A stretch of DNA of 64,000 nt. Source: Kordiimonas laminariae (GTDB lineage Bacteria; Pseudomonadota; Alphaproteobacteria; Sphingomonadales; Kordiimonadaceae). The notes under the pieces are model-generated. The model was given only the letters and a program-made list of their open reading frames with translations. It was not told the origin of the DNA and searched no databases. The stretch spans positions 186,001-250,000 of the forward strand of contig NZ_JAKQZA010000003.1 of NCBI RefSeq assembly GCF_023008165.1, written 5' to 3'. This document shows, piece after piece, positions 54,137 to 57,708 of the stretch. Numbering within the stretch: the stretch's first letter is position 1; each line of letters opens with the position of its first letter. The translations under genes were made by a program, and so were the position numbers.

Positions 54137-54338
54137 ATTGGAAAATCCTGCACCATAAGGGGGTGGCGCAGGCTCGTAAGCTAAGGTAAATGAACCACCT
54201 GAAAACCGAGCGATTCTAATGAATGAGCCAATACAAGGGAAAAGAGTGGCTCAATCATTACTCTATTTGACGACAACTAACCTCTTCACATTCCAAAAGA
54301 ATTTTCTAAGCCGCAATTATTTTTCAAAAACTTCTTGC

Positions 54339-54396
54339 TTTTATGTTGTTCCATATGTACCCCTTAATCACACGGTACATATGGAACAACATAAAA
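54339..54396. repeat. Perfect 23-bp inverted repeat ending at the GntR start codon
   Basis: Left arm 54339-54361 (starts TTTTATGTTGTTCC) and right arm 54374-54396 are exact complements, separated by 12 bases (CCTTAATCACAC). The right arm ends at the base before the ATG of the next gene, leaving no room for a ribosome site. The rest of the gap (54137-54338) shows TTGACG at 54267 but no other clear element. Likely operator or translation-control hairpin. Confidence 0.75.
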
Positions 54397-54792
54397 ATGC
54401 AAATAATGATAGACATCGACAGCAACACTCCAATGTTCGCCCAGCTGATTGAACAGATCAAAAAGGCGGTGCAGACGGATTCCATCAAGCCGGGAGATGG
54501 ATTGCCTTCAATCAGGCAGCTCGCCAACGACTTGAATGTGAACAATAAAACAGTGGCAAAAGCATACCAATTGCTCGAGCGCGACAATGTTATTCAAACC
54601 AAGGGCTACAGAGGCACCTTTGTGCATCCTGATGCCAAGGCAAACTGTAGCTTTGATTTGAATGCATGGGTTTTTGAAAAACTCAGCGAGACGATAGAGA
54701 CACTCCGAAAAGCAGGTGCAACAGACAGTGAAATCCGTATCGCCTTCGGGGATGTAATCAACAATAGAACCTTCAAAGAAAAAGAGGCGTAA
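54397..54792 (+). CDS. GntR-family regulator, YtrA-like
   Basis: 131 residues (ATG at 54397; 54406 is an alternative start, both without a Shine-Dalgarno). A GntR winged helix-turn-helix fills the first 75 residues: IDIDSNTPMFAQLIEQIKKAV, LPSIRQLANDLNVNNKTVAK, AYQLLERDNVIQTKGYRGTF. The C-terminal tail of about 50 residues is a helix, with no FCD or UTRA sensor domain, as in the YtrA subfamily. YtrA regulators usually control the membrane-protein operon they belong to. The next gene starts one base after its stop. Confidence 0.85.
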   Translation: MQIMIDIDSNTPMFAQLIEQIKKAVQTDSIKPGDGLPSIRQLANDLNVNNKTVAKAYQLLERDNVIQTKGYRGTFVHPDAKANCSFDLNAWVFEKLSETIETLRKAGATDSEIRIAFGDVINNRTFKEKEA

Positions 54793-54793
54793 C

Positions 54794-55678
54794 ATGGCTA
54801 TCACGACACTCATTCTGTATCTAGCTTTCCTTAGCCAGATATTCCTGCTTTCCTTTTACTATCCATCGAGATTTATAAAACGTGCTCGGTATGTAATTGA
54901 AACATATCCGCCTACGGATTACCCAAAACTGTACCCCAGTTCATTCGGGTATGATTCCAAGGCTGCATATACAAGTGGATTAACCAGTTACAAAGTCATG
55001 AATGGTATCGCTATTTTGGTGGGCCTAGGGCTTCTCACCTGGGCAATCTACACAGGATATACCCCGAGCCCAACAGGTGGTGAAGAAGTCATCATAGTAG
55101 GATATCTGTTTGTGCAATCTTTCCCACATATAAGGGCAGAAATAGCAGCCTACCAGCAACTTAAAGCAATGCAGTATTTCGACAAAAGCACCAAGCGAGT
55201 AGCTGAGTTAGCACCAAGAAAATTATTTGATTTCGTTTCACCAATAGCGGTGTTGGCCGCAGCGGTTCTTTTCGTCAGTTGGCTTATGTTCTTCATTTCA
55301 TCAGAAGGTTCCATTACAGAATGGCAAGACAACGTTTATATCTCGCTGACAATACTTATCGCTGTTCATGTCGGCTATATCTTCGCGATACGGCAAGCTC
55401 TACACGGCAAAAAGCAAGACCCCCATCAAGCTACGAAAGACCAACTGGGTGCAATTGAAACCAAAGTGAAAATGTATGTTTATTCTCTGATTTTCATGAA
55501 CCTGTTTCTACTGCTCAACACGGCGATTGAAATATCAGGGCATGAGGTTCTCGACCCTATCGCTACTACTATATATTTTCAGGTCTTGGTTGGCTGCATC
55601 ATGGAACTATTATTCCGTACCCATAAGGTTGAAACCATTGATTATGAGGTATACCGGGGAACCAGCTCCCAACAATAA
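54794..55678 (+). CDS. Multi-pass membrane protein of unknown function
   Basis: 294 residues, about six or seven membrane segments (near 5-22, 68-88, 98-110, 147-172, 180-200, 232-250, 258-275). Charged loops include KRARYVIETYPPTDYPKLYP after the first helix and HGKKQDPHQATKDQLGAIETK between helices. No recognised domain, nucleotide-binding motif or catalytic site. It is coupled to the GntR-type gene (one base between), so it is likely the target and operon partner of that regulator. Confidence 0.6.
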   Translation: MAITTLILYLAFLSQIFLLSFYYPSRFIKRARYVIETYPPTDYPKLYPSSFGYDSKAAYTSGLTSYKVMNGIAILVGLGLLTWAIYTGYTPSPTGGEEVIIVGYLFVQSFPHIRAEIAAYQQLKAMQYFDKSTKRVAELAPRKLFDFVSPIAVLAAAVLFVSWLMFFISSEGSITEWQDNVYISLTILIAVHVGYIFAIRQALHGKKQDPHQATKDQLGAIETKVKMYVYSLIFMNLFLLLNTAIEISGHEVLDPIATTIYFQVLVGCIMELLFRTHKVETIDYEVYRGTSSQQ

Positions 55679-55697: not shown

Positions 55698-55724
55698 GGT
55701 GGCTGCCCCTACGGCCACCTTTTC
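55698..55724 (+). terminator. Terminator after the GntR operon
   Basis: GGTGGC, ten-base loop, GCCACC, then TTTT. It starts 20 bases after the membrane-protein stop. Confidence 0.7.
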
Positions 55725-55806: not shown

Positions 55807-56151
55807 ATGGCCTATGATGAATATTTAACCGACCGTTTCAGAGAATGCCTGGAAGGTATTATGGATATCTCTGAAAAACGAATGATGGGTGGCGTGTGCT
55901 TTCTTATAAACGGCAATATGATTGGTGGAGCTGACCGCACTAAATCTGGCGAAGGCCGGTTCATGTTCCGTGTGGGCAAAGAAAATGAAACCGAAGCCCT
56001 AACAAGAGAAGGGGCAACTATCATGGAACAAGGTGGCAGGCGCATGAGCGGCCTTATTTTTGTTGCAGAAGATGCTTGCGAAGAAGATGAAATATTACAG
56101 GATTGGGTTTCACTTGCTTTAAGCTTTGTCTCTACCCTTCCACCTAAATAA
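55807..56151 (+). CDS. TfoX/Sxy N-terminal domain family protein
   Basis: 114 residues from the ATG at 55807 with AAGGA eight bases upstream. The TfoX_N pattern is visible: MGGVCFLINGNMIGGADR (about 32-49), EGRFMFRVGKENE and MSGLIFVAEDA. In gammaproteobacteria TfoX/Sxy controls competence; stand-alone N-terminal domains elsewhere have no known role, so no competence function is claimed. It ends ten bases before the next gene. Confidence 0.82.
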   Translation: MAYDEYLTDRFRECLEGIMDISEKRMMGGVCFLINGNMIGGADRTKSGEGRFMFRVGKENETEALTREGATIMEQGGRRMSGLIFVAEDACEEDEILQDWVSLALSFVSTLPPK

Positions 56152-56161
56152 GGATAACATC

Positions 56162-56821
56162 ATGGCTGGTTGGCATTTTGACCCAGAAACCATTGTATTT
56201 CTGAATGACCTGAAAGCGAACAATACCAAAGATTGGTTCACAGAAAATAAGGCTCGTTTCACGGCAGACTACAAAGAACCGGCTGATTTCTTTAAAAACA
56301 TTATGCAACACCAACTGGAAGACGCATTTGGCGAAAGCTATAATGCTAAAATATTCCGTATTTATAGGGACTTGAGATTTTCCAAAGATAAAACTCCCTA
56401 TAATACCCATCTTCATATTTCTTTTGTACCATCGGGGCTGAAAAGCCTCGCCTGGTATTTTGGCCTACAGGCCGAAAATCTGGTGCTTGGTACGGGTGTA
56501 TTTGGTTTTGAAAAAGACCGCTTAAATAACTTCAGAGAAACCATTGTCAGCAAAAAAGGGGATCAACTTGCAGATATCCTGGCTGATTTACAGGAAAATG
56601 GTTTCCGCATTGGTAAACCAGATCTGAAAAAGATACCGCGGGGTTTTGATGCAAACCACCCTAATGCCTACCTACTTCGCTATAAAGGTTTAACGGTATG
56701 GCGCGACTTTGCTGATACAACACCAGCTACATCCGGAGATTTGATTGCTCTTTGCACTAAAACCTACCGGGAGATGAAACCCTTCTTTGATTGGATGCAA
56801 TCTTTCTATCAAAGTTCTTGA
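56162..56821 (+). CDS. DUF2461 family protein (TIGR02453)
   Basis: 219 residues from the ATG at 56162 (AAGGATAACATC before it). The DUF2461 fold shows in PETIVFLNDLKANNTKDWF and FRIYRDLRFSKDKTPYNTH with the later FGFEKDRLNNFRE and FDANHPNAYLLRYKGL. Function unknown. The stop overlaps by 13 bases the stop region of the convergent ABC-membrane gene, and AAGTTC-TT-GAACTT over the ends can form a hairpin. Confidence 0.88.
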   Translation: MAGWHFDPETIVFLNDLKANNTKDWFTENKARFTADYKEPADFFKNIMQHQLEDAFGESYNAKIFRIYRDLRFSKDKTPYNTHLHISFVPSGLKSLAWYFGLQAENLVLGTGVFGFEKDRLNNFRETIVSKKGDQLADILADLQENGFRIGKPDLKKIPRGFDANHPNAYLLRYKGLTVWRDFADTTPATSGDLIALCTKTYREMKPFFDWMQSFYQSS

Positions 56822-57708
56822 ACTTCTTTCGCAGGCTCTTCAGTTTCCTCTGTTGACGGTGCATCTTTAAGACGTCCTGTGATCTCTTGTGTACGAATAT
56901 ACTGCTGGTACATATAGGGAAGGATAGTCACACCTTCCGCAAACTGGGATGCATAGGTGATTATGGCGAATACATCCCCCATATTAGCACCAATCAGCAA
57001 TACGGAATCGTAAAGAGAAAAAGCAATCATCAACACCACAAACATATAGGTCAGGCCAAAGTTTCTGGCTTCAAGATCAGAAAGAGCAATCCTGTGTTTA
57101 ACAAGGCTTCCGAAATGGCCTTCAAGCTTTTCCTTCTGCCGGCTCATGAAGACCCGCGCCCTTGCCTCAAGCTCATTGTTGATGAGTTTATTCAAGGAAA
57201 TCATACGCTTCTTAGACAAGAGAAAAACCAGACCAATAAGAAGCGCAGCGCCCACAGCCACCGTCCCTGTTAAGGGTGCAATGATAAAGAGCATGATAAG
57301 TGCGCCGCCAATAGCGAACACTGACGTCAATCCCATCGGCAGTTCATTCTCAAAGAAATCAATCACTTCCTTTAGTAGATCTGCCCGGCCAATGGCAGGA
57401 GACAAATCATCGTGGTTTTCAATTGCTTCCCCAGAAATATCTTCACTGATTTCCCGGTAAATAGCCCCATAAGCACGAGTATCATAGAAACGCCGGAGAG
57501 TGCCAACCACGATCATTCCAACTTCAACGCCAAGAAAAATATAAATGCCCAACCATTCTTTCCCCACCAGGCCGTTAATTGCCATACCAAGGGCCAAGGG
57601 CTCAAGAACCCTTAACAAGTTCTCAAGCACCAACATTAAGAATGTAATGGATATCTTGCCGCTAAATTTCTTTAGAATTTCACCGTGCGTAATGTTTTCC
57701 AAGACCAT
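56809..57708 (-). CDS. ABC transporter six-transmembrane domain protein without ATPase
   Basis: 299 residues, five or six membrane segments and the cytoplasmic helices of an exporter-type ABC domain (ABC_membrane_3 family). The segment SKKRMISLNKLINNELEARARVF has the coupling-helix layout. There is no Walker A or ABC signature in the protein or next to it, so it is a domain without its own motor. Such stand-alone proteins exist but their role is unknown. It is the last gene of a leftward set with the sterol-desaturase-like gene; the gap between them is 53 bases. Confidence 0.75.
   Translation of the reverse strand: MVLENITHGEILKKFSGKISITFLMLVLENLLRVLEPLALGMAINGLVGKEWLGIYIFLGVEVGMIVVGTLRRFYDTRAYGAIYREISEDISGEAIENHDDLSPAIGRADLLKEVIDFFENELPMGLTSVFAIGGALIMLFIIAPLTGTVAVGAALLIGLVFLLSKKRMISLNKLINNELEARARVFMSRQKEKLEGHFGSLVKHRIALSDLEARNFGLTYMFVVLMIAFSLYDSVLLIGANMGDVFAIITYASQFAEGVTILPYMYQQYIRTQEITGRLKDAPSTEETEEPAKEVQEL

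Follow-up and report, generated by a model that had tools for sequence, protein, structure and literature searches.

How does a perfect inverted repeat that ends at a start codon serve the two genes behind it? We addressed this question at one locus of the window, by which we mean the whole 64,000-nucleotide stretch of Kordiimonas laminariae DNA that was analysed. The repeat consists of two 23-nt arms (54339-54361 and 54374-54396, neither assigned a strand) that are 100% complementary and lie 12 nt apart, and a hand estimate puts the chance expectation for such a repeat in 64 kb at about 10^-8. The conserved parts of the left arm are the half-sites TGTTCC (54347-54352) and TGTACC (54356-54361), and the right arm carries GGTACA (54374-54379) and GGAACA (54383-54388). 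The coordinates of both arms agree with those in the initial annotation, which had them stop one base short of the ATG; the right arm in fact ends at 54396 and directly adjoins the start codon at 54397-54399. The accompanying claim that no ribosome site is left was roughly right, although a weak GGA, 11 nt ahead of the start codon, is the sole candidate for the GntR gene. Folded as RNA, the whole element has a free energy of -35.9 kcal/mol (z = -9.2).

The first gene (54397-54792, + strand) encodes a protein of 131 aa that we assigned to the YtrA subfamily of GntR repressors on the basis of its PF00392 match (E=3.2e-13), its structural model and its nearest solved chains. PF00392, the N-terminal GntR winged helix-turn-helix, was detected in the window protein and in all 26 aligned members. 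In the model this domain is followed by two C-terminal helices (88-105 and 110-130), and a length of about 120-130 aa with a short two-helix C-terminal domain is a mark of YtrA-type regulators. Foldseek comparison of the model retrieved 3by6, 4ham, 6sbs (YtrA) and 2ek5, all with a probability of 1.00 and with a large full-length rmsd, and phmmer matched the protein to 3by6 at E=1.2e-14. The domain architecture and the nearest solved structures bear out the YtrA-type assignment made earlier. The start codon at 54397 is supported by the motif MxIxIDI, which relatives share starting at that ATG, and a TDSExRxxF motif near the C-terminus is invariant across 81 proteins. An operon with ABC transporter genes is typical of the subfamily and not obligatory; here the second gene has no ABC family match. 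An ABC_membrane_3 domain was seen about 1.1 kb downstream of the operon, in a 299-aa ORF on the - strand (56809-57708) that has no ATPase domain.

The second gene (54794-55678, + strand) encodes a membrane protein of 294 aa for which the AlphaFold model and the charge pattern predict seven helices with an N-out/C-in orientation. The model comprises seven long helices (pLDDT 87.8, pTM 0.83), and the orientation follows from a positive-inside distribution of charges. No family was found for the window protein in Pfam or NCBIfam, so the earlier description of a six- to seven-helix protein with no known domain holds, now with seven helices modelled. A Foldseek search of the model against the PDB gave no match at E<=0.001. 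Among the relatives of the protein, matches to Pfam, NCBIfam and PDB sequences were weak and scattered, the strongest being MSC_0624_12TM in two members at 2.7e-6; given such matches and no PDB fold match, we rejected remote homology to a known family. Many of the most conserved residues fall in the predicted cytoplasmic loops and tail and none in the outer loops. The invariant motifs PKLYP, RxAxLxxR, GKKxDP and FxVY[KR] occupy the cytoplasmic loops and the C-terminal tail, and three glutamines within helices (Q15, Q108 and Q263) are each kept in 55-59 of the 59 sequences aligned.

The ORFs of the two genes end at 54792 and begin at 54794, which leaves one base between them and agrees with the coupling described before. 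We then asked how widely the pair occurs. A search of 101 genomes found the membrane protein in 27, among them the window's own, and an orthologous GntR gene (59-100% identity) lay directly upstream in all 27. A search with the GntR protein alone returned 28 orthologues at E<1e-60, namely the same 27 and one at a contig end, and the next GntR proteins appeared only at 1e-33, a clear gap between orthologues and paralogues. Across 385 genomes of the class, we found one full-length and one partial match to the membrane protein besides the window's genome, and a 399-genome sample of the phylum gave four full-length matches in other families; the full-length matches from class and phylum have the same operon, with 11 or 12 of 12 positions of the repeat's central core (described below). 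A single-protein scan of genome contigs with the membrane protein found nothing. A scan of named genomes with the GntR alignment returned 198 relatives, and we read the 80 best of them; some of these 80 loci come from the same genomes as in the 101-genome search. The isolates among the best 80 include Kordiimonas, Marinicella, Aliikangiella, Thalassotalea and Colwellia. The bins among them are labelled Acidobacteriota, Neomarinimicrobiota, Melioribacter/Ignavibacteria, Calditrichota, Latescibacterota, Gemmatimonadota, Opitutaceae, Krumholzibacteriia and others, and these labels need caution because the sequences assigned to other phyla come from metagenome bins and may have been mis-binned.

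A seven-helix gene lies downstream of the regulator in 75 of these best 80 of 198 loci. The remaining five comprise three contig ends, one broken frame in which the family motifs are still visible, and one locus (L112) with a different gene. L112 keeps the GntR gene and a perfect core, and its next large ORF resembles, by eye, a beta-lactamase/CubicO-type hydrolase. At L013 / L030 (G052), the seven-helix gene is present in two tandem copies behind one GntR gene. The distance matrices of the two proteins are correlated (r=0.47; permutations reached at most 0.19), a correlation that partly reflects the shared ancestry of both genes. Mean identity is 67% for GntR and 33% for the seven-helix protein. 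Beyond the operon, genes for a TfoX N-terminal-domain protein and a DUF2461 protein follow at 55807-56821, and the sister species G013 (L004) has the same neighbours.

The core of the repeat recurs with the pair. Alignment of the regions upstream of the 27 operons of the window's order revealed a 24-bp core, TGTACC-N12-GGTACA (54356-54379 in the window, no strand), that is intact in 26 of them, and a second half-site 9 bp further out (TGTWCC / GGWACA) flanks the core in many of these loci. Among the best 80 of the 198 GntR relatives, which span several labelled phyla and, outside the Proteobacteria, are mostly metagenome bins, the core is matched at 12 of 12 positions in 55 loci and at 10 or more in 75. 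In L005/L106 and L050, also among these 80, the operon is the same and the core could not be convincingly recognised. In L014 and L016, extra TGTAC-like half-sites within or next to the operator follow a 9-bp lattice, a spacing that suggests that more than one dimer may bind. A palindromic operator that spans about 24 bp, has distant half-sites and precedes the regulator's own operon is likewise a mark of the YtrA subfamily, and such an element is present here. The operator and the regulator also differ together: both half-sites are changed in five loci (left TGTAYT, right AGTACA or AGGACA), and at residue 51 of the recognition helix N51 occurs solely in these five loci, whereas all 76 other proteins have K51. 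This joint difference ties the GntR regulator to the operator, and the N51 group probably stems from one evolutionary event. From this pattern of conservation, we infer that the inverted repeat is the DNA operator to which GntR binds. The initial annotation had suggested an autoregulatory operator, and the core kept upstream of the operon across relatives supports that reading; the recurrence in other genomes that it proposed to look for was found for the GntR-membrane pair and for the repeat core alike.

The contact between repeat and start codon, by contrast, deserves less weight than it had been given. The outer 8-bp symmetry of the arms is absent in the sister species G013, whose membrane protein is 98% identical, and the distance from core to ATG, most often 17-19 bp, ranges from 13 to 65 bp and is sometimes longer. 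Judging by this comparison, the outer 8 bp of the arms is incidental, and it would be this extra symmetry, which the sister species does without, that brings the arms up to the start codon in the window.

We examined the promoter geometry around the core. Of 76 loci, 73 have a TTG at 20-22 bp upstream of the core, and in 57 of them the distance is exactly 21 bp. In the window it belongs to a predicted -35 box, TTGCTT (54335-54340, + strand), for which many relatives have TTGACT. From the fixed TTG spacing, we predicted a -10 element, TACCCC (54358-54363, + strand; TACCAT in many relatives), which sits 17 bp from the -35 box on TACC[A/C][T/C] inside the left half-site and matches the consensus weakly; a generic promoter scan at the locus gave no promoter match. 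The -35/-10 geometry places the predicted transcription start region between the arms, towards the right-hand side of the loop at 54369-54372 (+ strand), with a leader of about 26 nt. Since the TTG is held at 21 bp (+/-1), the core covers the predicted -10 element and start. The left arm would therefore lie outside the transcript and the leader would lack the hairpin; a transcript from the predicted start has no significant structure (z +0.87). A terminator-like stem followed by a T run (55698-55719, + strand) stands after the membrane gene.

These results bear on two other readings of the repeat. It could act in RNA, as a hairpin or leaderless-mRNA device that masks the start codon, and the great stability of the whole element and its position against the ATG would fit such a role. 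The initial annotation had seen a dilemma here, in that a hairpin of this length would mask the start unless the message is leaderless; the puzzle disappears if transcription starts between the arms, as the conserved -35 box predicts. Outside the invariant core, moreover, pairing of the arms is broken in many loci, the outer arm is broken in G013, and comparison with shuffles gave a few single positions that were nominally high and no consistent covariation. Arms that covary within the transcript, as an RNA regulator would have, were not found, and the core-to-ATG distance varies. With no consistent outer pairing and an unstructured predicted transcript, the element behaves as a set of protein-binding half-sites; we rejected the RNA hairpin, which we consider very improbable. 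Long perfect inverted repeats can also mark transposable elements, and the repeat might be a mobile-element end or another repeat unrelated to GntR. It is present in one copy in the 3.65-Mb genome, and in different classes and phyla it precedes orthologues of one and the same operon; on these grounds we rejected this reading as next to impossible. The same counts speak to the size of the regulon. The window's genome holds a single exact core, and congeners that have the core typically also show just one, at the operon. Matches with one mismatch are little above a reversed control (38 vs 30), so a wider GntR regulon was rejected as well.

We therefore propose the autoregulatory operator as the function of the repeat: the locus is very probably a two-gene, single-target operon autorepressed by its YtrA-type GntR protein. 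In the scheme that we infer, from GntR binding and start site to repression and inducer, a GntR dimer would bind TGTACC-N12-GGTACA, and additional protein at the outer TGTWCC half-sites, 9 bp beyond the inner ones, would probably aid its binding. Bound GntR would block RNA polymerase because the operator covers the predicted -10 element and transcription start. A signal, possibly a toxic compound or stress on the envelope or membrane, would weaken binding, and the released operon would be transcribed with a short, unstructured leader. The seven-helix protein and more repressor would then be made together, and the repressor would shut the operon off again.

The part played by the seven-helix protein admits a further idea, namely that it is a membrane sensor whose conserved cytoplasmic face binds GntR on signal and so relieves repression of the operon. 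The strict pairing of the two genes, the predicted N-out/C-in topology, which puts most invariant residues on the cytoplasmic side in loops and in the C-terminal tail, the invariant TDSExRxxF of the regulator and the single-site regulon all point this way. However, pairing and single-site regulation are equally expected of an ordinary effector operon, the seven-helix protein is far less conserved than GntR, and L112 has the regulator and operator without the membrane gene. We regard the sensor as unlikely. The fuller proposal, that an undescribed seven-helix family both senses and sequesters a dedicated YtrA-type repressor and that the unit is exchanged among distant, mostly marine bacteria, is speculative and rather improbable; if true, sequestration of the repressor would constitute a compact membrane-to-DNA feedback switch. 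For the proposed autorepressed operon itself, the operator makes regulation directly testable, and cultured hosts include Kordiimonas, Marinicella, Colwellia, Thalassotalea and Aliikangiella.

We compared the operon to described YtrA systems. A typical YtrA operator spans about 24 bp and has half-sites that lie far apart, and most YtrA regulons comprise just one operon (PMC4494728, PMC6746942). The Bacillus subtilis YtrA of ytrGABCDEF and the ABC-linked subfamily share with the window a small GntR protein with two C-terminal helices, a long palindromic operator with distant half-sites and a single autoregulated operon (PMC4494728, PMC12772383), whereas the window operon has no ABC transporter genes and a seven-helix protein of no known family. 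The YtrA-like operator of Xanthomonas citri, as cited in PMC6746942, is also a 24-bp palindrome with a different half-site (GGTG-N16-CACC). The absence of ABC genes had been called unusual, which holds against most YtrA operons; membrane-protein-only YtrA operons are nevertheless known from Sulfolobus and Streptomyces (PMC6746942). YtrASa (Saci_1851) of Sulfolobus acidocaldarius acts at a site over the start to repress the operon that encodes it together with a membrane protein (PMC6746942). As in the window, the YtrA-type repressor comes first and a membrane protein takes the place of ABC genes, the site covers the transcription start (in the window, the predicted one), the core is flanked by extra half-sites and the regulon is very small (PMC6746942). 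Whereas the window operon has a 24-bp core of N12 spacing, a single exact site and a -35 box of the bacterial kind, YtrASa has a 14-bp core with a compact dimer, and it has a second target gene (PMC6746942). The Streptomyces SCO3812 group, as far as it is cited in PMC6746942, also combines a YtrA-like regulator with a membrane protein replacing ABC genes, and is described there with a shorter alpha4 helix, unlike here. The window operon thus resembles the YtrASa/SCO3812 group in having a membrane protein without ABC genes and departs from it in lacking the compact 14-bp core shown for YtrASa; the likeness is one of operon layout. The membrane family, which was compared with Pfam, NCBIfam and the PDB, and the breadth of the module appear to be new. 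The result is a highly conserved module of regulator, operator and membrane protein, the last absent from Pfam and NCBIfam and with no solved fold, and YtrA operons with only a membrane protein, until now reported from Sulfolobales and actinomycetes, turn out to be widespread among Gram-negative bacteria.
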